Source: Comamonadaceae bacterium | GTDB lineage: Bacteria; Pseudomonadota; Gammaproteobacteria; Burkholderiales; Burkholderiaceae_C | Direction of reading: 5' to 3' | DNA: 64,000 nt | Assembly: GCA_027488985.1 (NCBI GenBank) | Contig: JAIYAR010000005.1 | Location: 229,594 to 293,593 of the forward strand | Part shown: in pieces, positions 24,948 through 36,201 of the stretch | Numbering within the stretch: the first letter of the stretch is position 1 | Layout of the letters: every line of letters starts with the position of its first letter | Translations under genes and position numbers: made by a program | Notes under the pieces: generated by a model | Told to the model about the DNA's origin: nothing | Seen by the model: only the letters and a program-made list of their open reading frames with translations | Database searches by the model: none

Positions 24948-24992
24948 AGCGCTTATGGAATATGCGCGAGCAGCTACTGTTTTGATAGTGCT
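24948..24992 (+). repeat. Comamonadaceae-type intergenic repeat, copy 2
   Basis: It begins AGCGCTTATGGAATATGCGC and ends in the variant hairpin GCTACTGTTTTGATAGTGC. The stop codon of the GT51 gene (TAG on the minus strand, 24976-24974) lies inside it. Confidence 0.85.
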
Positions 24993-26269
24993 GTAGAGCC
25001 GCTGATACCGGAATTCACTGGCCCCATCGCTGCCAGCTCGTTCAGCAGCCGGGCGCGTTCAGCCCGGGGTAGCGGCCGCAAGCCCGCCGCCACCCACTGC
25101 GCACGCTCCAGGTTGATGCTGCCACGTGCCTTCCAGCGCTGGGCTTCCAGGGCGGGGTTGTGCAGCATGGCTGCCAACCAGACGGCTTGGGCGGCAGTGA
25201 GTTGGTCGGCGCGTTTGCCAAAGTAGGTGTGGCCCGCGGCTTGCGCGCCGCACACGGTGGAGCCCCAGGGTGCGTGGCTCAGGTAGAGCTGCAGAATGCG
25301 GGCCTTGCCAAGAGTCTGTTCCATCTCCACTGCGTAGAGCAGTTCGCGCAGCTTGCGTACAGGGGAGCGTTCACCGCCTGTGACCAGCAGCTTGGCCACT
25401 TGCTGCGAAAGCGTGCTCGCCCCCCGTAGCGTGGCTTCTTCGGCTTGGTTGCTGCGTAAGGCTTTGCTCATCTCAATCAGGTCGTAGCCGGGGTGTTCAT
25501 AGAAGCGTTGGTCTTCGGCAGCCAGCACGGCGCGGGCCAGCAAGCTGTCGTTGCGCACATGGGCTCGTGCCATAACGGCGGGCAGGCCCCGGTTGCATTG
25601 GCTTTGTGCTTGCGCCCAGGCTGCGGTGCCCAGGCCGCTGACGGCCATGCCGTTCAGCCGTGGCTGGACGTTAAGCTTTTTACTGGGCAGCTCCAGAGTG
25701 GCTTTGAGGGAAAACGTACCGTCGATCTGCGCAGTGGCAACTTCGGGGATGGCGCTGGCGAACAGGGCGTAGCCATTGGCCACGGGGGTACTGGGCACAT
25801 CAATGTGCAGCGTGATGCCAGTGGGGCGCATCGTGCCGTGCCAGGTGGCGGTGACGGCACCGCTCTGCAGCGTGCCGCGCAGCTCGGTGGCGTTGCGGCG
25901 CACGGTCATTCGTGCCTCTTGCAGGCGGATCGGTTCACCGCCCCAGCTGCTGCTGCGTAGCGTGCAGGGCTGGCAGTGCAGCTGGAGTTGCTGGCTGGCC
26001 TCGTCCCACGCCAGCCGCACTTGGCCCAAGCGTGTGGGCAGGATGTGGCCGTGCAGCTGCCTTGCAATCCACGGGGTGCTGCCCCATTGCACCAAGGCAG
26101 CCACACCCACGTCCATCTTCAGCGGGCCCACGCGCAGTGTGGTTGCCCAGTCGCCCGGTGCCGGGCGTACGATGGCCCGCGCCGTAAACAACAAGGCACT
26201 CAGGCCCAGCATGGCCAGCACCGCAGTAATAACCAAAACCCGGGCCGTAGCCCACAGCAGTTTGCGCAC
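24974..26269 (-). CDS. Monofunctional GT51 peptidoglycan glycosyltransferase with extra periplasmic domain
   Basis: A 431-residue protein: one N-terminal membrane anchor (residues ~8-30), a ~180-residue periplasmic region rich in beta structure, then the GT51 domain. The domain carries the catalytic Glu in AAEDQRFYEHPGYD and the family stretches RGASTLSQQVAKLL and YFGKRADQLTAAQAVWLAA. No transpeptidase domain follows. Such enzymes polymerise lipid II into glycan strands, and the added N-terminal region is unlike plain MtgA. It is the last gene of the exosortase operon, 29 bases after the EpsI-like gene. Confidence 0.87.
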   Translation of the reverse strand: MRKLLWATARVLVITAVLAMLGLSALLFTARAIVRPAPGDWATTLRVGPLKMDVGVAALVQWGSTPWIARQLHGHILPTRLGQVRLAWDEASQQLQLHCQPCTLRSSSWGGEPIRLQEARMTVRRNATELRGTLQSGAVTATWHGTMRPTGITLHIDVPSTPVANGYALFASAIPEVATAQIDGTFSLKATLELPSKKLNVQPRLNGMAVSGLGTAAWAQAQSQCNRGLPAVMARAHVRNDSLLARAVLAAEDQRFYEHPGYDLIEMSKALRSNQAEEATLRGASTLSQQVAKLLVTGGERSPVRKLRELLYAVEMEQTLGKARILQLYLSHAPWGSTVCGAQAAGHTYFGKRADQLTAAQAVWLAAMLHNPALEAQRWKARGSINLERAQWVAAGLRPLPRAERARLLNELAAMGPVNSGISGSTALSKQ

Positions 26270-26298
26270 AACATCATCCTTGCTAAATCACCAGAGGG

Positions 26299-26856
26299 TT
26301 ACAGCGGAGTGGCCACGGTGATGGCCTTCCACGGGCCGGTGGACTGCCCGGCAGCCGATGCCCAGTACCAGGCGGACGTATCGGTAAAGCCTTGCCCTTG
26401 CGCGTCTTCAATGCGTTCACAGACGCGCACCGCGCGGCCACCGCGTTCGGCGATGAAGCAGCGCCAGCGGGTCTTGTCGGTGTGCTCTTCCAGCTGCTCG
26501 TTGCGGATGCGGTAGCCAAGGCCGCGGTAGCAGTCGGTGGCGGGGTGTAGCGTGCGGGTGGGCTGGGTCACGGTGCGCAGCACCAGCACTTGGTGGCCAT
26601 CGGTCATGCGCGCCAGCGTGCCGGGGAAGTGGCGTGCAAAGCGCAGCTCCACCTCGCTGAGTGCCAGGGGCCGCAACGGTGTGCCTTGCCACTCGGTTGG
26701 CAGCTCGTAGCTCTGTGTGGGTGTGCCTAGCTCTCGCGTTGCTGAGTGATCTACGATGGTTTGACCCAGGCTCCACAGAGCACACAAGGGCAGCAGGGCG
26801 GCCCACAGCGTCTTGTGCAGCACGCGGTTCATGAAATGATTTCTTAGCAAGTTCAT
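26299..26856 (-). CDS. Exosortase-associated periplasmic protein (EpsI-like)
   Basis: The product is 185 residues from the ATG at 26856, which overlaps the exosortase stop as ATGA, so the two are translationally coupled. It has one N-terminal hydrophobic segment (LWAALLPLCALWSLGQTIV). The body contains HPATDCYRGLGYRI and RVCERIEDAQGQGF. Size, position and topology match the EpsI-type partner proteins that accompany many exosortases, although direct sequence similarity is weak. It probably assists processing or positions the substrate. Confidence 0.65.
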   Translation of the reverse strand: MNLLRNHFMNRVLHKTLWAALLPLCALWSLGQTIVDHSATRELGTPTQSYELPTEWQGTPLRPLALSEVELRFARHFPGTLARMTDGHQVLVLRTVTQPTRTLHPATDCYRGLGYRIRNEQLEEHTDKTRWRCFIAERGGRAVRVCERIEDAQGQGFTDTSAWYWASAAGQSTGPWKAITVATPL

Positions 26857-27704
26857 GATGCGGCGCGCTCCGCAGTCATGGTGCGGCCCATGGTCCAGGC
26901 AATGCCACCGCACACCGCCGCCAGCACCAGCAGGCCCACTGCGTCATGTCCCCAAGCGGGCAGATGGGTGCCCGAGGCTTGGGCCGCCACCAACACGGTG
27001 TTGCGCAACACATTGCCCAGCAGTACCAGCACACCCACCACGGGTAATCGAAGCAGAAAGCGCCGGTTGGGCTGGCCTGTAGCCAGCGCAATCACGCAAG
27101 CGGTGAAGTACCCAAGCCATGCCATCTGCACACCCGAGCAAGGCGCGTCCACGATGATGAGCTGGCCATTCACGACCAGGCTGCTGCCCGTGCGTTCTAC
27201 GGTGTGGGCGACGGACAGCAACCAGCGGCTGGCTTCCGCTGTGACCACACGCAGCGGAAAGCCCGCATAGAACTGCAGCGAGGCCAGCAGCGGCAAAGAG
27301 AGCACGGACAGACCCAGTACCGGTGCGGAGGCTACACGCGCCGGCAGAAAGGCGATGAGCCCCGCGGCCACCGACAACAGGCCGATGAGCGCCACCACCA
27401 AGTCCGGCAACTGCTGGTGCAGTGCGGTGGTCAGCACCGCGCCCATAAGTGCAGCCATTTGAAAAGCCAGGCGTGGTGTGGGGCTCAGGTGGTGGCGGTG
27501 CTGCCACAGTAGTCCGGCCAGAGCCGCCAGGGCCAGTAGCCCCAGCGGGTCATCCGAGCCATCCACCATGCGCTGGCCCATCCACCACCAGGTGGGCCAC
27601 AGCGCCAGGGCCAGCAGGGCCAGCCAGCGCCATTCGGGTGCGGTATCGATGGCGATGCCGAAGCGCACGAATCGGGGCATGTGAATCAGGCGAGGCAGTG
27701 CCAT
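26853..27704 (-). CDS. Exosortase family transpeptidase
   Basis: The 283-residue integral membrane protein has about eight helices. The three residues of the exosortase active site are all present: Cys189 in VDAPCSGVQMAW, Arg234 in NVLRNTVLV and His253 in AWGHDAVG. Exosortases recognise PEP-CTERM tails, cleave them and transfer the protein to a surface carrier. The likely substrate is the PEP-CTERM VIT-VWA protein encoded 15 bases upstream. I cannot assign a named exosortase subtype. No exopolysaccharide genes are nearby, unlike typical EpsH loci. Confidence 0.88.
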   Translation of the reverse strand: MALPRLIHMPRFVRFGIAIDTAPEWRWLALLALALWPTWWWMGQRMVDGSDDPLGLLALAALAGLLWQHRHHLSPTPRLAFQMAALMGAVLTTALHQQLPDLVVALIGLLSVAAGLIAFLPARVASAPVLGLSVLSLPLLASLQFYAGFPLRVVTAEASRWLLSVAHTVERTGSSLVVNGQLIIVDAPCSGVQMAWLGYFTACVIALATGQPNRRFLLRLPVVGVLVLLGNVLRNTVLVAAQASGTHLPAWGHDAVGLLVLAAVCGGIAWTMGRTMTAERAAS

Positions 27705-27719
27705 GGCCGATCTTTCTGT

Positions 27720-29822
27720 TTAGCTTGTGTAGTGGTGAGCGCGACGGCGGCGATATGCCAGCATGGCCAACACCGACAGCGTCATCAACATCGCGCCCCA
27801 GGTGGCGGGCTCGGGCGTGCTGGGCACTTCAGCACCCAAGGCAGAGTTCTCCACACCTTGTGGCAAAGGCGAGGGTTGGTTCACGCTGGGGGTGTCGGCG
27901 GGCGCCTTGTTGCGCACGACTTGGTCCACGGCCAGGAAGCTGGTGTACTGGGTAAGCAGGCTGTACTTAAGGCCCAGATCGGTGATGGCGTCCTTGGCGG
28001 CGCTGCCGCCTTCCAGGGCTTCCTGGTCGCTGAGTGCGGCAATGCGGTGGCGGGCCCACAGGTGGCGCAGGGCGGCGGTGTCGGTGCTGGCGGCTGTGAT
28101 GGGCAGGCTGTTTTTCAGCGGGCCGTTGGCGGAATTACCGTCCACGATCAACGTGCCCTTGGCTTCTCCTTTCCATTTGCCAAACACGATGAGCGGGCGT
28201 TGGGCCAGCAAGTCGGGCAACTGGCGCGGTTCCACGTCGTACACGTCCAGGCCCTCAAAACGCACCTTCACATTGGTGAGCACGGGGGAGTCAATCATTG
28301 TGCGGAAGCGGGCCGCTTGTTCGGCGGCCTCGGCGGGTTTGGTGATGATGAAGGGTTCGCCCATGCCCGCACGGGCCAGGCCTTCCATGAGGTGGCGGTT
28401 CACGCTGGAGCCGATGCCGAACGAAAACACGTTGGCGCTGGAGAGGTTGTTGCGCACCAGCTCAAAGGCTTCGCGCTCCACAGTCACATAACCGTCGGTC
28501 ACCACCACCACGGTGCGCGAGGTGTCGGCGTTCTTGGGCTGCGCATAGACGCGTTTGAGCGCGGGGATCAGCTCGGTGCTGCCTCCGCCACCTTGTTGGT
28601 CAATGGTGCGGATGGCCTGGTCAATGTTGGCCTTGGTGGCGGGCACTGACGTGGGGTTCAAGAAGCTGTTGCTGCCCGAGAAAAGCAACACGTTGAAGGT
28701 GTCGCTGGGGCGCAGGCCGCCAATCAGCTCGCGCAACACGCCTTTGGCCGTGTCCAGTGGAAAGCCGTGCATGGAGCCTGAGATATCCACCACAAAGATG
28801 TACTCGCGCGGCGTGATGGCCGTAGCGGCCGGGGCCTTGGGCGGTTCCACCATGGCGAGGAAGAAGTTCTCGTCCTGGCCCTTGTAGAGCATCACGCCAG
28901 TCTCGATCTTGTCCCCGGCCAAGCGGTAGTTCAGGATGAAGTCGCGGTTGTTGGTGGGCTCGGCTGTGGGGTTCAGGCCCACCACGGTGGCGCCGCCCTG
29001 CTCGGTGTAGCTGCTGATGGTGTGCGAGCTGGAGCGCACCTCTTTCACACCAATGGGCGTGTTCAGCGTCACGTGGACATCAAACGCTGGCGCGGCTGCG
29101 CTGGTGGGCGTGTTCTGACCCTTCGGCATGATGGGCTGGGCCACCCAGGCAGCGTTGGCTTGGCTGCTCTGCGGGCTGTTGTAGCGCGGGCCCACCACGG
29201 TGGGGAAGACGAACTGGTAGTTGCCGTCGGTCGGCAGCAGCAACTCGGTGTAACGCAGCTCCACCTTCACGTCGTCGCCCGGCATGATGTTGGCCACATT
29301 CATCTGGAACACATTGGGCAGGTGCTGCTCCAGCAGCGCGGCGGTTTTGCCCTCTTGCTTGGCTGCTTCGTATTCGATCTTGGCCTGTTGCTTCTCGCGG
29401 ATTTTGGCGGTGATCAGGCGGTCCGCCAGGCGCACATTCATGCCATGCACTGCCGCGCGCGTGGAGCCGGGGAACACGTACTTGGCCTCGAAGGCGCGCT
29501 GGCCTTCGTTTTTGTAGGTCTGCACCACGGTCACGTCGGCAATCACGCCGCTGACCTTCACATTCACCTGGGTGGACTTGAGCGGCAACTGGTCTACGCC
29601 GGGGTTGTCGCTTTTGACGAAGAAGAAGGGGCTCTCGGTCTTTTGGCGAGGTGCGGCATCGCGGTCTTGCGCGTGGGCTGTGGGGCTGATGGCCAGCGCC
29701 ACAAAGCATGCGGCAGAGAGTGTGGTGGTGGCCAGCCAGAGCCAACGCGACAGACGCGCCGGAGGCTCAGTGGTGGCGGGTGGAGCCGCGTGTGCGGCAG
29801 CGGGATGGGTGGCAAATGCCAT
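27720..29822 (-). CDS. VIT- and VWA-domain surface protein with PEP-CTERM sorting tail
   Basis: A 700-residue protein with a long signal region (hydrophobic part WLWLATTTLSAACFVALAI, then PTAHAQ). A VIT domain (~residues 65-195) contains the ADRLITAKIREKQQAK stretch. A von Willebrand A domain has an intact metal-ion site (FVVDISGSMHG, ~residue 345). The C-terminal tail has STPEPATWGAML, a membrane helix and RRRR, i.e. a PEP-CTERM signal. It is the same architecture as the single LPXTG target of the marine proteobacterial dedicated sortase, with the tail changed to suit an exosortase. CreB boxes lie upstream. Confidence 0.92.
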   Translation of the reverse strand: MAFATHPAAAHAAPPATTEPPARLSRWLWLATTTLSAACFVALAISPTAHAQDRDAAPRQKTESPFFFVKSDNPGVDQLPLKSTQVNVKVSGVIADVTVVQTYKNEGQRAFEAKYVFPGSTRAAVHGMNVRLADRLITAKIREKQQAKIEYEAAKQEGKTAALLEQHLPNVFQMNVANIMPGDDVKVELRYTELLLPTDGNYQFVFPTVVGPRYNSPQSSQANAAWVAQPIMPKGQNTPTSAAAPAFDVHVTLNTPIGVKEVRSSSHTISSYTEQGGATVVGLNPTAEPTNNRDFILNYRLAGDKIETGVMLYKGQDENFFLAMVEPPKAPAATAITPREYIFVVDISGSMHGFPLDTAKGVLRELIGGLRPSDTFNVLLFSGSNSFLNPTSVPATKANIDQAIRTIDQQGGGGSTELIPALKRVYAQPKNADTSRTVVVVTDGYVTVEREAFELVRNNLSSANVFSFGIGSSVNRHLMEGLARAGMGEPFIITKPAEAAEQAARFRTMIDSPVLTNVKVRFEGLDVYDVEPRQLPDLLAQRPLIVFGKWKGEAKGTLIVDGNSANGPLKNSLPITAASTDTAALRHLWARHRIAALSDQEALEGGSAAKDAITDLGLKYSLLTQYTSFLAVDQVVRNKAPADTPSVNQPSPLPQGVENSALGAEVPSTPEPATWGAMLMTLSVLAMLAYRRRRAHHYTS

Positions 29823-29911
29823 GGAGCTTCTCCAATCGGCGTGCGGTATTGCACGGTGAAGAGAGCATCCCGCCGGGGGGAGAAGTCAGTTTGAAGCGGT
29901 TAGAGGCTTGT

Positions 29912-29938
29912 GTGAAGTTTGTGTGAAAACCGGGTGAA
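29912..29938 (-). promoter_or_regulatory. Tandem CreB boxes upstream of the VIT-VWA gene
   Basis: On the minus strand three TTCAC half-sites (29938-29934, 29927-29923, 29916-29912) recur every 11 bases, giving two overlapping TTCAC-N6-TTCAC elements. This is exactly the cre-tag bound by E. coli CreB and the related Aeromonas BlrA. The site is 90 bases before the VIT-VWA start codon, in the 142-base gap after the hypothetical gene that follows creC. Confidence 0.85.
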
Positions 29939-29964
29939 CAAGGATTTTCAGCAACAGCTGACAG

Positions 29965-30432
29965 TCATAAGTCAGCGCTCTGATTGGTGCTTTCAGCTAT
30001 CGGAGACAAATTGAGTTGCGCAAGGATGGCAAGGCACATTAGCCCCTGGCTTTTTCCGGTTCCTGGCATGTGCGCCGAAAGCATCTGTTCATTGGTAACC
30101 TCTCGCCATTCCTCAATTGACACAACTGTTGATTTGGCCTGGTTCAACTGAAGTTCCCATCGCCAAAAGCGTCGATCTACCGTGACGATAAGACCACTGT
30201 AGTGATCAACAAGGCCGACTGCGCTCAAGTCCTCGTACTCGAAGTCAATCGCTGTGGCCAAGTCGATCGAGCGTACTTCCAGAAATGCACGTATTGGTGA
30301 TGGAATTTCGTCCCTATGAGTACGAAACCACGTGGCTGCTTGGAGTAGCTTGTATTCCGAAACTGCGTTTTGCTCTGCCACATTGAGCTGACGTCGCTTC
30401 AAAAGACGCTCGATATCTGAAGGCGTTTTCAT
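29965..30432 (-). CDS. Hypothetical protein between creC and the exosortase operon
   Basis: The protein is 155 residues from the ATG at 30432, which has GAGCAAG upstream and follows the creC stop by 8 bases; an in-frame ATG at 30465 would overlap creC. It has no signal peptide or membrane segment. It is mixed helix/strand with FRTHRDEIPSPIRAFLEVRS and YSGLIVTVDRRFWRWELQLNQ. I recognise no family. The region is visibly richer in A/T than the genes on either side, suggesting later acquisition; it may simply be an insertion. Confidence 0.65.
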   Translation of the reverse strand: MKTPSDIERLLKRRQLNVAEQNAVSEYKLLQAATWFRTHRDEIPSPIRAFLEVRSIDLATAIDFEYEDLSAVGLVDHYSGLIVTVDRRFWRWELQLNQAKSTVVSIEEWREVTNEQMLSAHMPGTGKSQGLMCLAILAQLNLSPIAESTNQSADL

Positions 30433-30440
30433 GTTCTTGC

Positions 30441-31907
30441 TCAAGTAGCTCTGCGTGGCAACCACAACACCGCACTAGCACCCGAGCCCTCTTTTTCTGG
30501 CCGATTGCCCAATTCCACCTTCCCCCGGTGCAACGAAGCAATCTCTTTCACAAAGCTCAACCCCAGCCCCGTGCTCTTCTTCTTGGAGTGCGGGCGGGCG
30601 AGTGAGTAGAACTTCTCAAACACTTTGTCTTGCGCGTAGCCGGGGATGCCGGGGCCCTGGTCGCGCACGGTGATCTGGGCCCAGCGGCCTTGGACCTGCA
30701 AGCCCAGTTCAATGTGGCCGCCCTCCGGGGAAAAGTCCAGCGCGTTGTCCAGCAGGTTGCTGACCGCGCGGCGCAGCAAGAAGGGGTCGGCCTCCACGGT
30801 CACGTCTTCGCTGGCGGCCACGGTGATGCGGCAGCCGCGCTGCGTGGCCACGCCGTGGGATGCGTGTGCCAATTCGTCCAGCAGTGGGAGCAGTGCGACG
30901 GGTTGTACGGTGTCCAGCACGCGGCGGGTTTCCAGCGCGGTGAGCTCCATCATGCGGTCCACCATCTCCTGGATGCGCTGGGTCTCGCGCTGGATGTTGG
31001 TGAGGAAGCGCTGGCGCTGCGCTTCTTCCATGGGCTCCTGCAGCAGCTCGGCCGCACCGCGGATGGCGGACAGCGGGCTCTTCACTTCATGCGTGAGCGT
31101 CTGCACATAGTCGGCCACATAGTTGCGCCCGGCCAGCGCGTCGCGCATTTCGTCGTAGGCGGCGCGCATCAGGTCCCAGGCGCGGCGCAGCAGGCGGCCG
31201 GGGTGGAAGCCTTGTTGGGCCTTGATGTAGCGCGCGTAGTCGGCAATCAGGCCAAAGGGCCGCACCAGCCACATGGACACCATGACGGCCAGCACCAGCA
31301 CGGCTAGCACCGAGATCAGCCCCGCATAGAGCGTGCGGCTGCGCGCGGCGGCCACAAACTGGCCAAAGGTTTGCACCGGCTTGCCCACAGTGACGGCGCC
31401 AATGATTTCGCCGCTGCCCTCGCCTTGTGTATTGCTGGTCCAGCGCACCGGCGCGGCCATGTACATGACGGCGGTGTTGGGGTCGCCGGGAATATCCAGC
31501 GAGGTGCGGGCGCCGTATTCGCCTTTGAGCGTGAGCTGTACGTCGCGCCACTGCGAGAAGTCTTTGCCCTGCGACTGGCCGGTGGAGTCGTACAGCACGG
31601 TGCCGTTGCGGTCGGTGACGTAAGCGCGCAGCTCCACCTTGGTTTTGTTGACGCTGAAGATCTGGGCGCTGAACTCGCGGGCGTAGGCGGCTTTGAACAG
31701 GCTGTCCAAGCGCGCGGTGTCGATGGCGCCGTCGCGCACGTCTTGCTCGATGAGGGTGGCGAGCAGCTGAGAGGTTTCTACCAGCGACTCCTCTGCAGAC
31801 TCGCGGTAGCGCGGGTCCAGGTCGCTGACCACGCGGTAGAGCACGGCGGCCATGCCGATCGCATAGATCAGCAGCAGCCCGAAGAAGATGCGACTGCGTT
31901 TGCTCAA
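30441..31907 (-). CDS. creC: CreC-type sensor histidine kinase
   Basis: The 488-residue membrane kinase has two transmembrane helices (~residues 8-28 and ~197-215) flanking a periplasmic sensor domain. A HAMP-like linker follows, then the phospho-acceptor in TLTHEVKSPLSAIRGAAELL and the ATPase boxes (SNLLDNALDFSPEG, RDQGPGIPG, GLGLSFV). Sequence and pairing identify it as CreC. In E. coli and Aeromonas relatives it responds to metabolic state or to inhibition of low-molecular-weight penicillin-binding proteins. Its start overlaps the creB stop by 4 bases. Confidence 0.9.
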   Translation of the reverse strand: MSKRSRIFFGLLLIYAIGMAAVLYRVVSDLDPRYRESAEESLVETSQLLATLIEQDVRDGAIDTARLDSLFKAAYAREFSAQIFSVNKTKVELRAYVTDRNGTVLYDSTGQSQGKDFSQWRDVQLTLKGEYGARTSLDIPGDPNTAVMYMAAPVRWTSNTQGEGSGEIIGAVTVGKPVQTFGQFVAAARSRTLYAGLISVLAVLVLAVMVSMWLVRPFGLIADYARYIKAQQGFHPGRLLRRAWDLMRAAYDEMRDALAGRNYVADYVQTLTHEVKSPLSAIRGAAELLQEPMEEAQRQRFLTNIQRETQRIQEMVDRMMELTALETRRVLDTVQPVALLPLLDELAHASHGVATQRGCRITVAASEDVTVEADPFLLRRAVSNLLDNALDFSPEGGHIELGLQVQGRWAQITVRDQGPGIPGYAQDKVFEKFYSLARPHSKKKSTGLGLSFVKEIASLHRGKVELGNRPEKEGSGASAVLWLPRRAT

Positions 31908-32635
31908 AGTGTTTCCGGCAGTTCTTCGCTCAGCGCATAGCCGCTGCCTCGCAGGGTGCGGATGGGGTCGTGGCCGGGGGCCACGAGTTTGAGTTTGGCG
32001 CGCAGGGTTTTGATGTGGGCGTCTACCGTGCGGTCAAAGCTGTCGTTGTCGCCACCCCAGACCTGCAGCAACAGCTCGTCGCGCGTGAACACGCGGCCGG
32101 GCTTTTGCACCAGCAGGCGCAGCACGCCGTATTCATAGCGAGACAGCTCCAGCAGCTTGCCGTAGAAACGGATCTGGCGGCGCTCTTCGTCCAGTGCCCA
32201 TATGGCGGGAGTGTTTGCGGGTGCTGTCACAGCGGGTGCAGCAGTGGTCAAAGGCCGTGCACTGCGGCGCAGGATCGTGCGCACGCGGGCCACCAGTTCG
32301 CGGGGCGAAAAGGGCTTGGCGATGTAGTCGTCGGCGCCCAGCTCCAGGCCCACCACGCGGTCGATCTCGTCGCTGCGCGCGGTCAAAAACAGCATGGGCA
32401 CCTGCTTGCCACCGGGCAGGGCCTGCAGGCGACGGAACAGCTCAAATCCGTTCAGGTCGGGCAGGCCCACATCCAGTACGGCCAGTGCGGGCAGCTCGGC
32501 GCTGAACTGGGCAATGGCGTCTTCGGCAGTACTGGCCCACACGGGTGCAAAGCCGTCGGTGGACAGCACGTACTGCAGGGTGTCGGCAATGCCGGACTCG
32601 TCTTCAACAATGAGGATGCGCGGTTTCAGGGCCAT
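31904..32635 (-). CDS. creB: CreB-type response regulator
   Basis: From MALKPRILIVEDESG the product is 243 residues: a receiver domain (Asp pair VEDE, acceptor in LAVLDVGLPDLNG, Lys in IAKPFSPREL) and an OmpR-type winged helix (VFTRDELLLQVWGGDNDSFDRTVDAHIKTLRAKL). It should bind the TTCAC repeats at 29912-29938. The upstream part of the open frame (to 32698) is encoded by a dispersed repeat and is unlikely to be translated; an ATG at 32644 is a close alternative start. Confidence 0.9.
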   Translation of the reverse strand: MALKPRILIVEDESGIADTLQYVLSTDGFAPVWASTAEDAIAQFSAELPALAVLDVGLPDLNGFELFRRLQALPGGKQVPMLFLTARSDEIDRVVGLELGADDYIAKPFSPRELVARVRTILRRSARPLTTAAPAVTAPANTPAIWALDEERRQIRFYGKLLELSRYEYGVLRLLVQKPGRVFTRDELLLQVWGGDNDSFDRTVDAHIKTLRAKLKLVAPGHDPIRTLRGSGYALSEELPETL

Positions 32636-32665: not shown

Positions 32666-32707
32666 AGCGCCCGTCGAATGTGCGCGAGCAGCTATCAATT
32701 ACGTAGC
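32666..32707 (+). repeat. Comamonadaceae-type intergenic repeat, copy 3
   Basis: Contains AGCGCCCGTCGAATGTGCGC and the hairpin part GCTATCAATTACGTAGC. It lies between creB and cueR, and the last codons and stop of cueR (32699-32701) fall inside it. Confidence 0.85.
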
Positions 32708-33145
32708 AATTTGGCTGTCGCCCGCCAGGTCATCGAGGATGGGGCAGTCCGGCCGGTCGTCGCCGTGGCAGCAGTGCAACAGGGTGGAGAGCGTGCGCTG
32801 CATGGCCTGCATAGCGGCGATGCGCTCGCTGAGATCGTCCATATGCTTTTGGGCGATCTTCTTGACGTTGGCGCTGGCGCGGCGCTTGTTTTGCCACAAG
32901 CCAACCAGCTCGCCGATCTCGGCCATGGAGAAGCCCAGGTCGCGGCAGCGCTTGATGAAGCGCAGGGTGTGCACATCGGCCGCGCTGAACAGCCGGTAGC
33001 CACTGTCGGTGCGCGTGACATTGCCCAGCAGACCCAGCGACTCGTAATGCCGCAGCATCTTGGCGGATACGCCGCTTTGCCGGGCAGCCTCGCCGATGTT
33101 GACGGGCTGGCCGTACAGCGTTGCTGGCTTAGTCTTTGACGGCAT
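32699..33145 (-). CDS. cueR: Copper-responsive MerR-family regulator CueR
   Basis: The 148-residue protein has the MerR winged helix (NIGEAARQSGVSAKMLRHYESLGLL), a dimerisation helix and the Cu(I)-binding loop CCHGDDRPDCPILDD. The two loop cysteines and the Ser/Ala pattern are typical of CueR. I chose the ATG at 33145 (MPSKTKPATLYGQPVNIGEAA), which overlaps the end of copZ by 17 bases. It activates the two promoters at 33354-33384 and 33924-33954. Confidence 0.93.
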   Translation of the reverse strand: MPSKTKPATLYGQPVNIGEAARQSGVSAKMLRHYESLGLLGNVTRTDSGYRLFSAADVHTLRFIKRCRDLGFSMAEIGELVGLWQNKRRASANVKKIAQKHMDDLSERIAAMQAMQRTLSTLLHCCHGDDRPDCPILDDLAGDSQIAT

Positions 33146-33326
33146 AGCCCTCTTCGGCAATCGCCTTGGCAAGGATATCGCGGGCTTGGGTGGATTCGAT
33201 TTCCACCAAGTTGGCGCTGCGGTCGATCTTCACTTGGGCTTGGGGGTCCGCATCCTTGATGGCGCGGGTTACGGCCTTCTCGCAATGGCCGCAGGTCATG
33301 CCGGTAACGGTAAAGGTCTGGTTCAT
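33129..33326 (-). CDS. copZ: Copper chaperone (heavy-metal-associated domain), CopZ
   Basis: This 65-residue ferredoxin-like domain carries GMTCGHCEKAV, the CxxC copper site. It delivers Cu(I) to the CopA pump and perhaps to CueR. It is the first gene of a copZ-cueR operon driven by a CueR-type promoter, with CAGGAG upstream of the ATG. Confidence 0.95.
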   Translation of the reverse strand: MNQTFTVTGMTCGHCEKAVTRAIKDADPQAQVKIDRSANLVEIESTQARDILAKAIAEEGYAVKD

Positions 33327-33353
33327 GGTGACTCCTGAAAGGTAAATAGAAGC

Positions 33354-33384
33354 ATTGTGAACCTTGCCATGGTGGGAGGGTCAA
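33354..33384 (-). promoter_or_regulatory. CueR-activated promoter of copZ-cueR
   Basis: On the minus strand TTGACC (33384-33379) and CACAAT (33359-33354) are -35 and -10 elements with the long 19-base spacer typical of MerR-family promoters. The spacer contains the dyad CCTCCCACCATGGCAAGG, nearly identical to that in front of copA. Confidence 0.88.
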
Positions 33385-33471
33385 GTGCCTGTGTCAGTGG
33401 CCTGCCACTCTTTGGGCACACAAAAATGCACGTAAGCTTGTTTTTCCATGGGTTGAAGAGGAGAGGTTCAT

Positions 33472-33927
33472 TTGGACATCATCAAAGCCACGGTTGAAGA
33501 CGCTCCGGCCATCAGTAGCCTGATCGGTAGCGTGGCCCGTTTCTTCACTTTGCAGCCGGATGGAGCGGGTGCGGAAGATTTTCTGAAGACGATTTCGCCC
33601 GGCGCTGTGGCCGGCTACTTGGCAGATCCGCGCTTCTCGTATTTCAAGGCGGTTGACAACGGCACGCTGGCGGGTGTCGTGGCAGTGCGTGAAGGCAGCC
33701 ACGTGTATCACTTGTTTGTGGACGAGTCATTCCAGCGCCAAGGCTTGAGCCGGTTGCTGTGGGACCATGCCCGTATGGCTGTGGGCGAAGCCAACCCGGG
33801 TTACTTCACGGTCAACTCCACGCCTTATGCCCAGCCGGTGTACGAACGCTTCGGGTTTGTGGCCACCGGACCGCGGGTGGAGACCAAAGGCATTGCATTT
33901 GTGCCCATGCGTTGGGTAGCCGCTTGA
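33472..33927 (+). CDS. GNAT-family N-acetyltransferase
   Basis: A 151-residue acetyltransferase with the acetyl-CoA loop in FVDESFQRQGLSRLLWDHARMA (the R/QxxG/A motif is QRQGLS) and the typical YERFGFVATGPRVE ending. The start is TTG, supported by GAGGAGAGG 7-15 bases upstream. It is wedged between the copZ and copA promoters, and its stop codon overlaps the copA -35 box by four bases. Substrate unknown. The fold suggests a small-molecule or protein amine acceptor; a role in copper response is only suggested by location. Confidence 0.87.
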   Translation: MDIIKATVEDAPAISSLIGSVARFFTLQPDGAGAEDFLKTISPGAVAGYLADPRFSYFKAVDNGTLAGVVAVREGSHVYHLFVDESFQRQGLSRLLWDHARMAVGEANPGYFTVNSTPYAQPVYERFGFVATGPRVETKGIAFVPMRWVAA

Positions 33928-33954
33928 CCTTCCCACCATGGCAAGGCCTAAGCT
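33924..33954 (+). promoter_or_regulatory. CueR-activated promoter of copA
   Basis: TTGACC (33924-33929) and TAAGCT (33949-33954) are separated by 19 bases containing TTCCCACCATGGCAAGG, the same dyad as in the copZ promoter. Transcription starting seven bases after the -10 box would begin at or next to the copA ATG (33961). Confidence 0.88.
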
Positions 33955-33960
33955 TGCACC

Positions 33961-36201
33961 ATGAGCACTGAAACCCCCTCCCCCACGACCATCGATATCG
34001 GCATTGGCGGCATGACCTGCGCATCGTGTGTGATGCGCGTTGAGAAAGCCCTGAACAAGGTGCCTGGCGTGGACAGCGCCACGGTGAACCTGGCGACCGA
34101 GTCCGCCCGCATTGCGGTGCACGATGCCGGCATGGAGGCACGCTTGCGCCGTGCAGTGCGGGACGCGGGCTATGAGCCCTTGGCGCCCAGTGCCGCGATT
34201 GACGCGGTGGATGCCTCGCCATGGGCGGGCTTCGGGCCGGTGGGTATAGGCCTTGCGCTGTGTGCGCCTTTGGTATTGCCCATGGTCGGTGACCTTTTTG
34301 GCAAAGATTGGATGCTGCCGGCGCTCTGGCAGTTTTTGCTGGCCACGCCGGTGCAATTCATCCTGGGAGCACGTTTTTACAAGGCCGGTTGGCATGCGCT
34401 GCTGGCACGCACCGGCAATATGGATTTGCTGGTGGCGCTGGGCACCACAGCGGGGTGGGCTTTGTCCATGTGGTTGTGGCTGACCGCCACGGACCACAGC
34501 GCGCATGGCATGCCGAACATGGAGCCGCACCTGTACTTTGAAGGCAGCGCCGTGGTGGTGACGCTGGTGTTGCTGGGCAAATGGTTGGAGGCCCGCGCCA
34601 AGCGCCAGACGACGGCGGCTATTCGCGCCCTGCACAGTCTGCGGCCGGACACGGCGCACCTCTTGGGCCGCGATGGCGAAGTGGATGTGCCTGTGGCCGA
34701 GGTGCTGGTGGGCGACAAAATTGTGGTCAAACCCGGCGAGCGCTTTCCGGTAGACGGCACGCTGCTGGAAGGCCGCACGCAGGTGGACGAATCCATGCTG
34801 ACGGGCGAGCCGCTGCCGGTGAGCAAAGAAGTGGGCGACAAGCTCACGGGCGGCAGCATCAATGGAGAAGGTCGCGTGGTGCTGCAGGTGCGCGCGGTAG
34901 GGGTGGACACGGTGCTCTCAAGCATCATCCGGCTGGTGGAAGACGCGCAGGCTGCCAAAGCGCCCATCCAGCGGCTGGTGGATCAGGTGAGTGCGGTTTT
35001 TGTGCCGGTGGTGCTGGTGATTGCGCTGGTCACGTTGCTAGGCTGGTACTTCACCGGCCATAGCTTTGAAGTTGCGTTGATCCACGCGGTGGCGGTGCTG
35101 GTGATTGCCTGTCCTTGCGCCCTAGGTTTGGCCACGCCGGCCGCCATCATGGCGGGCACCGGGGTGGCGGCCAAGTTCGGCATTCTGATCAAGGACGCAC
35201 AGGCGCTGGAGGTGGCGCACACCGTGAGCGTGGTGGCCTTCGACAAGACCGGCACGCTGACCGTGGGCCAGCCGCGCCTGACCGCGCTCGAGCCTGTGGG
35301 CCTGACCGATGACGATGCGCTGGCCTTGGCCGCCGGTTTGCAAAGCGGCAGCGAGCACCCTTTAGCCCGCGCCGTGCTGCAGGCGGCTAAAGACAAAGCG
35401 CTCACCGTGACCGCACCCACCGATGTGCAAGCCGTGGCCGGTCATGGAACCCAAGGCAAAGTGGGCGAGCGCACTTTATTGCTAGGCAGCTTGCGCTGGA
35501 TGGCGGAGCTTGGGGTGGATATGGCGCCGGTCGCGGCGCAGGCGGCCGATCTGCAGATGAGCGGTGCCACGGTGTCAGCCATGGCAGAGCAACAAGCAGG
35601 TGGCTTAAAACTGCTGGCCCTGCTCGCGTTTGCGGACGAGCCCAAGCCCGGCGCCAAGGAAGCGTTGGCCACCCTGAAGGCCCGCGGAATCCAGACCGTG
35701 ATGATCTCCGGTGACAACCGGGGCGCGGCTGAGGCCATGGCCAAGCGCCTCGGCTTGGATACCAACGATGTGTTGGCCGAGGTGTTGCCCGGCGACAAGG
35801 CTGCGAAAGTAGCCGCGCTCAAAGCCGGTGGCAAAGTCGTTGCCATGGTCGGTGACGGCGTGAATGACGCACCAGCGTTGGCGGCTGCCGATGTGGGCAT
35901 GGCCATGGCCAACCCCAACGGCGGCGGCACCGATGTAGCCATGCACGCGGCCGGCATCACCCTCATGCGAGGCGATCCGCTGCTGGTGGCGGCTGCGCTG
36001 GACATCAGCCGCCGCACGGTGTCCAAGATCCGGCAAAACCTGTTCTGGGCCTTTGCCTACAACGCGGCCGGCATTCCGCTGGCAGCGCTGGGCTACCTGA
36101 GCCCCGTGGTAGCAGGTGCGGCCATGGCACTGAGCTCAGTGAGTGTGATGACCAATGCCTTGTTGCTCAAACGCTGGACGCCGGAGCAGGGCGACAAGTA
36201 A
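33961..36201 (+). CDS. copA: Copper-exporting P1B-type ATPase CopA
   Basis: The 746-residue pump has one N-terminal metal-binding domain ([16 protein letters not shown]), eight predicted membrane helices and the intramembrane copper site CPC ([14 protein letters not shown]). The phosphorylation motif is DKTGTLT; TGEPLPV and [10 protein letters not shown] are also intact. The HP motif occurs in [12 protein letters not shown]. It exports Cu(I) across the inner membrane at the cost of ATP. The promoter is CueR-type and little or no 5' leader is expected. Confidence 0.97.

Follow-up and report, generated by a model that had tools for sequence, protein, structure and literature searches.

The stretch of DNA analysed here, called the window in the following, comprises 64,000 nucleotides of contig JAIYAR010000005.1 from a Rhodoferax-like Comamonadaceae bacterium. 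Its minus strand carries seven genes between positions 24974 and 32635: creB, creC, a hypothetical gene, a gene for a protein with VIT and VWA domains (the VIT-VWA protein), the exosortase gene xrtQ, a gene for an EpsI-like protein and a gene for a monofunctional GT51 glycosyltransferase. All seven were confirmed in the order given by the original prediction, which had been made from the nucleotide sequence and proposed an exosortase system dedicated to one VIT-VWA substrate and equipped with its own CreBC two-component pair. The response regulator gene creB (31904..32635) matched family NF008296 with 299 bits (cut-off 273); its open reading frame extends to 32698, but the family start fits the ATG at 32635. 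The sensor histidine kinase gene creC (30441..31907) scored 580 bits against NF008312 (cut-off 356). Downstream, the genes for the VIT-VWA protein (27720..29822), the exosortase (26853..27704), the EpsI-like protein (26299..26856) and the glycosyltransferase (24974..26269) follow one another with a 15-bp gap, the overlap of xrtQ with the EpsI-like gene and a 29-bp gap, and because these gaps are tiny the four genes likely form one operon. The overlap is the ATGA coupling already seen in the original prediction: judged from the translations, the EpsI-like reading frame begins at 26856, ahead of the xrtQ end at 26853. We read the locus, with a probability of about 0.7, as a dedicated sorting operon that is switched by CreB and serves a single cargo, the VIT-VWA protein, with XrtQ, the EpsI-like protein and the GT51 enzyme as its other products. 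This reading draws on sequence comparisons of five kinds: the pairing of enzyme and substrate, the CreB binding motifs, the co-occurrence with CreC, the conserved gene order and the fusion of the EpsI-like part to the exosortase.

The exosortase belongs to a named family, exosortase Q (XrtQ, NCBIfam NF012182), with 382 bits against a cut-off of 270. Its residues Cys189, Arg234 and His253, correctly positioned in the original prediction, were invariant in 59 of 59 aligned exosortase sequences, the window's included, as is expected of the exosortase superfamily; cleavage and transfer of a PEP-CTERM protein is the predicted activity. The open-access papers searched yielded no text on XrtQ. The VIT-VWA protein, the proposed sole substrate, carries VIT, VWA and PEP-CTERM domains (PF08487, PF13768, PF07589) and the metal-site motif DISGS of VWA domains at residue 346. 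Its C-terminus consists of VPSTPEP, a hydrophobic segment and an arginine-rich tail. The residues T-P-E were common to all 57 substrate tails of XrtQ loci, and four tails deviated at a flanking proline, the last one being replaced by alanine in loci L052 and L058 and the first by serine in L036 and L077; the tail alignment itself comprised 26 chosen rows with P-x-TPE.

Scanning a collection with one genome per species revealed 51 loci encoding relatives of the window exosortase. The genome of the window itself codes for 12 PEP-CTERM proteins over the cut-off and for two exosortases, XrtQ and XrtB. These 11 further PEP-CTERM proteins together with XrtB favour a house-keeping view, in which both exosortases are interchangeable for all 12 proteins and creBC and the GT51 gene are chance neighbours. 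Formally, such a count speaks against the dedicated system of the original prediction, but the 11 other proteins are explained by the presence of XrtB, and the objection disappears in genomes with XrtQ alone. Exosortases were searched for in the genomes belonging to 36 of these loci, with the other 15 left out, and XrtQ was the sole exosortase in 20 of the 36 genomes. These 20 genomes had 0–2 PEP-CTERM matches at E ≤ 0.1, the 16 genomes with another exosortase 3–32. With a profile of the XrtQ-substrate tail, every XrtQ-only genome of the 20 gave one strong match (52.9–76.7 bits), encoded just before xrtQ, and the next best match anywhere among them scored 19.0 bits; one enzyme thus faced one target wherever a second exosortase was lacking. 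Also in the window's genome the VIT-VWA tail was set apart: it was the weakest PF07589 match among the 12 (26.4 bits against at least 37.8), yet reached 75.7 bits with the XrtQ-substrate tail profile, followed by a runner-up with 30.6 bits. Since gene order and CreB motifs are conserved as well, we consider the house-keeping view very improbable. The sequence comparisons argue for a pairing of XrtQ with a single VIT-VWA substrate, as had been proposed.

The synteny of the module was retained in the relatives. A VIT-VWA gene was located directly upstream of xrtQ on the same strand in all 51 loci; in L055 it was truncated, with the last third alone recognisable. An EpsI-like part followed XrtQ likewise in 51 of 51, as a separate gene in 45 (in L016 cut by the contig end) and fused to the exosortase in six. 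Of 50 loci, 44 had a GT51 gene no more than 2.8 kb downstream, L016 ending too early to tell, and two of the six loci without a near GT51 gene, L033 and L034, had a homologue further downstream. CreC was detected with more than 200 bits on the fetched stretch of 41 of the 51 loci, and four of the ten misses had less than 3 kb of upstream sequence. The hypothetical gene (29965..30465) was not part of this conserved set. Pfam and NCBIfam gave no match for it, none of the 51 related loci had a homologue, and the gap between creC and the VIT-VWA gene is filled with unrelated genes in some relatives, so it was rejected as a module member; it is probably cargo that sits between creC and the VIT-VWA promoter without belonging to either. 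This gap was a variable cargo spot across L014, L018, L019 and L030, and the different relatives carried an OLD-like TOPRIM ATPase, a NERD/UvrD-type gene, an AAA-ATPase with a PDDEXK nuclease domain or a DUF4143 AAA gene; some of these cargo genes resemble defence genes.

The original prediction had overlooked a feature between the hypothetical gene and the VIT-VWA start. The motif TTCACN6TTCAC, known as cre/blr tag, lies upstream of creD and is described in PMC4689548 as critical for the binding of CreB or its Aeromonas counterpart BlrA. Exact tags in the 64-kb window were limited to two overlapping copies (29912..29938, minus strand) just upstream of the VIT-VWA start, formed by three TTCAC repeats with an 11-bp period. 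A further degenerate tag with two mismatches, TTCAAACTGACTTCTC (29880..29895, minus strand), was noticed in the motif search and the aligned promoters; CTTC repeats like this element follow the tag box in many of 54 aligned promoters. From its position it may be a second operator; tags with two mismatches as such were as frequent in the window as expected by chance (44 found, 44 expected). Tags were counted in a 400-nt promoter stretch of 57 loci, namely the 51, the window, L073, L075, L077, L081 and L110, with the XrtQ-like loci L079 and L080 (128 bits) excluded and the stretch set by a default offset in L053 and L055, which had no anchor motif. An exact tag was present in 53 of the 57 promoters, with 0.01 expected. 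Three of the four remaining loci (L028, L029, L077) had a tag with one mismatch, the fourth being the truncated L055, and overlapping tag pairs occurred in 19 of the 57. The 1,085,150 bp outside the promoter stretches contained one exact tag, in L073 and likewise upstream of the VIT-VWA gene, and a reversed control pattern gave 2 occurrences in the count. These tags tie the operon to CreBC, as expected for a member of its regulon and in line with the original assignment of an own CreBC pair, and suggest that CreB regulates the VIT-VWA/xrtQ operon.

The kinase accompanied the exosortase. All 41 XrtQ genomes tested had CreC over the cut-off. Among 300 genomes of the order, CreC was found in 38: in 7 of 7 genomes with an XrtQ match of at least 128 bits, four of these over the XrtQ cut-off, versus 31 of 293 others (Fisher test 3e-7, kinship ignored); such genome searches scored part of the first-look candidates, e.g., five per genome for CreC in the order-genome scan and 11 for the GT51 domain. 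The distance between CreC and xrtQ was at most 10 kb in 32 of the 41 genomes. In seven (G018, G019, G021, G028, G204, G281, G294) CreC lay further off or on another contig, and in G022 and G031 both genes were near contig ends, so that linkage could not be assigned. The exact tag was kept despite distant creBC in G018, G019, G021, G204 and G281, in G281 with creBC about 45 kb from the locus; in G294 the tag had one mismatch, and the locus of G028 is the truncated one. In a first tree, CreC proteins of XrtQ genomes formed one clade apart from the creD-type, to which side L078 of G294 belonged; the window's CreC fell into this XrtQ-type clade. A larger tree retained the clade except for G018 and G294 and required 3 changes of the label XrtQ genome; a second CreC of G007 was also creD-type. 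The trees have long branches and were built by a quick search, with support values of the Shimodaira–Hasegawa-like approximate likelihood ratio test (SH-aLRT). In loci without XrtQ, creD lay downstream of creC (about 70 bp to 7 kb) in all eight that were read for creD, and the stretch of five of these eight contained an exact CreB tag. A divergent creD beside the VIT-VWA gene was present in 5 of the 51 XrtQ loci.

With the tags taken as real, the operon could still be mainly a metabolic or growth-phase output of CreBC, as in Escherichia coli, instead of a response to cell-wall stress. We regard this as unlikely in view of the cell-wall genes that adjoin the operon: GT51 genes stand close downstream in the 44 of 50 loci mentioned above, and genes combining GT51 with a transpeptidase lie just upstream of the VIT-VWA gene on the opposite strand in Variovorax-type loci. 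The latter code for bifunctional penicillin-binding proteins (PBPs), head-to-head with the VIT-VWA gene or near it, in L031, L041 and other such loci, and were Pfam-checked in L031 and L041. In Pseudomonas aeruginosa, CreBC is activated by the loss of PBP4 according to PMC2654508. The link of GT51 and CreBC to cell-wall stress in the original prediction leans on this Pseudomonas work, and a cell-wall-stress signal for the present CreC would be an analogy to other species; the GT51 part of the link proved frequent, but neither universal nor accompanied by a catalytic motif in every locus.

The GT51 protein (PF00912, 144 bits) has an N-terminal helix and an extra N-terminal domain with Cys99, Cys102 and Cys225 ahead of the PF00912 domain. 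The window protein contains the catalytic glutamate motif (EDQRFYEHPG) and the STLxQQ motif as GASTLSQQ, both typical of GT51, and the C-terminal part of its structure model, with a predicted local distance difference test score (pLDDT) of 92, matches solved peptidoglycan glycosyltransferases; for the N-terminal domain a convincing solved relative was not found among the 50 matches listed. The three cysteines were invariant in 23 chosen rows. These rows and those of a second GT51 alignment had been selected by a match to the glutamate-motif pattern, and the invariance of the catalytic residues in the second alignment is partly a result of this selection: L018 (truncated), L030, L033, L034 and L058 had no pattern match and were left out, L058 having the motif in variant form. 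The N-terminal domain was strong in five of the 300 order genomes, of which four have XrtQ. The fifth, G322, has a GT51 of this type without an XrtQ match, and exclusiveness of this type to XrtQ genomes was rejected. The GT51 protein is thus linked to XrtQ, but as no catalytic motif was recognised in L030, L033 and L034, it may have a role besides the synthesis of glycan.

The EpsI-like protein had no match in Pfam and a single NCBIfam match at E 0.01, to the C-terminal part of the exosortase XrtT (38 bits). It aligned with the C-terminal parts of the six XrtQ fusion proteins, and its structure model had a pLDDT of 91. EagT6/SciW chaperones and a photosystem II chain appeared in the fold search with a best E of 0.05, too weak to be used as relatives.

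We infer the signal, the activation, the cleavage, the acceptor and the role of the anchored protein as follows. CreC would sense an envelope condition, probably a disturbed peptidoglycan synthesis as in Pseudomonas. Phosphorylated CreB would bind the tags upstream of the VIT-VWA gene, and the operon would be transcribed. The VIT-VWA protein would be exported and remain fixed in the inner membrane through its tail, until XrtQ, assisted by the EpsI-like protein as its partner, would cut it near the TPE motif via Cys189 and transfer it to an envelope acceptor. The GT51 enzyme would add or adapt glycan strands at the anchoring site of the VIT-VWA protein, with a simultaneous action on the wall. 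The anchored protein perhaps binds or braces the envelope.

A more specific proposal for the acceptor is that XrtQ uses lipid II as the acceptor of the VIT-VWA protein and that the GT51 enzyme polymerises the product into peptidoglycan, as a Gram-negative counterpart of sortase A, whose targets become attached to lipid II as stated in PMC1569441. The frequent last gene of the set codes for a member of a lipid II-using enzyme family, and the GT51 N-terminal domain is concentrated in XrtQ genomes in the order-genome scan. Against this stand the loci with a GT51 that is missing or lacks the catalytic motif, the GT51 of this type that G322 keeps without XrtQ, and the lipid anchoring of archaeosortase substrates given in the title of PMC7157517; we consider the proposal rather improbable. 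If true, a failure of peptidoglycan synthesis would, through CreBC, cause one surface protein to be anchored covalently to the wall, and a stress-induced, exosortase-based counterpart of sortase A would exist in Gram-negative bacteria.

Several points weigh against the CreB-switched single-cargo operon. The 53 of 57 promoters with an exact tag belong to kindred loci, which are not independent events; tag conservation is no proof of regulation by CreB, and an activating direction is assumed. The window's genome holds 6 other exact tags outside the locus, compared to 5 of the reversed control, so that single tags are uninformative genome-wide and the overlapping pair alone is distinctive there. 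The XrtQ genomes G018 and G294 have a creD-type CreC. A GT51 gene was not adjacent in 6 of 50 loci, GT51 was not found in the fetched stretches of G294, G067 and G111, and the GT51 proteins of L030, L033 and L034, in which the cysteine pair was kept, showed no catalytic glutamate motif. The fold search gave no confident solved relative for the EpsI-like model. The single strong tail match in 20 of 20 XrtQ-only genomes includes 10 genomes in which 150 of 169–274 first-look candidates were scored.

To our knowledge, it is an open question which acceptor exosortases use and what their sorting is for, and this is difficult to address because typical hosts sort many proteins. XrtQ-only strains, e.g., Variovorax G008 and Polaromonas G007, reduce the problem to a single enzyme with a single substrate and add a predicted inducer pathway, which makes cleavage, acceptor and function directly testable in them. 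The CreB tags also suggest that CreBC has an output other than creD. In the CreBC-CreD regulon of E. coli, Pseudomonas and Stenotrophomonas, and in BlrAB of Aeromonas, the same CreB and CreC families and the same DNA tag are used, but the known target is creD, whereas here the VIT-VWA/xrtQ operon is tagged.

Systems that sort VIT-VWA homologues in a dedicated way were already known, with class GN sortase, an exosortase case and XrtN as examples. PMC3237569 described in 2011 VIT/VWA homologues whose tails are of the LPXTG, GlyGly-CTERM or PEP-CTERM type, and XrtQ had a family name; the core of the originally proposed independent exosortase version is supported, but it is less new than it appeared. 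The XrtQ substrate, the CreB tags and the GT51 link were worked out here, and part of this may be stated in the NCBI family note. Papers combining an exosortase with CreBC or with a VIT domain were not found in the open-access literature, outside of which most subscription journals lie. The class GN sortase system (TIGR03784/03785/03787/03788) also has a single VIT-VWA target beside the enzyme and a two-component pair, and this target is homologous to the window protein. However, the enzyme families are unrelated, the tail is LPXTG-like instead of PEP, and the kinase and regulator of the class GN locus L095 belong to other families. The window protein was not assigned to this class, as it scored 433 bits against TIGR03788 (cut-off 552) and its neighbouring sorting enzyme is XrtQ. 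CreB control was rejected as a shared trait, as an exact tag was found in none of the 11 VIT loci over the TIGR03788 cut-off (L093–L103), for two of which, L095 and L100, the class GN sortase was profile-confirmed. PBP1b genes are also near these two loci. In L103 (6155-10398), a TIGR03788-type VIT-VWA gene and a CreBC pair are divergently oriented, and the CreC of this pair branches as sister of the XrtQ-type clade; neither an XrtQ homologue nor an exact CreB tag was found on this stretch.

Compared to EpsH/XrtA, XrtQ shares the superfamily and, according to PMC1569441, the Cys, Arg and His residues, but serves one substrate instead of many and has no exopolysaccharide gene in its module. The lack of such genes had been pointed out in the original prediction, and a scan of nine genes showed none, the remaining neighbours in the window and in related loci being annotated only in part. 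XrtN (TIGR04476/TIGR04477, the latter named XrtN-system VIT protein in NCBIfam) and XrtT (NF033770) are, like XrtQ, exosortases tied to VIT proteins, but of other families, XrtT with the EpsI-like part in one chain. XrtT genes stood directly before VIT-VWA genes in L107 (4910-8965) and L112 (3109-6831), apparently a further exosortase family tied to a VIT-VWA target; no exact CreB tag was found in either. XrtQ-like exosortases (128 bits) were paired with a larger VIT protein in L079 (6690-9935) and L080 (6223-9398). This protein was closest to TIGR04477 (106–115 bits, below the cut-off of 250), an exact CreB tag preceded its gene, and a second substrate type under the same CreB switch is possible. 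One XrtQ locus, L051, came from a bin titled Pedobacter (Bacteroidota), and its CreC groups with a Moraxellaceae locus; the contig is perhaps mis-binned. A CueR gene flanks the module in 12 of the 51 loci and a Crp-type gene in five. In the window, cueR and a gene for a P-type metal ATPase, probably copA from the reading of the sequence, adjoin creBC at 32699-36201.

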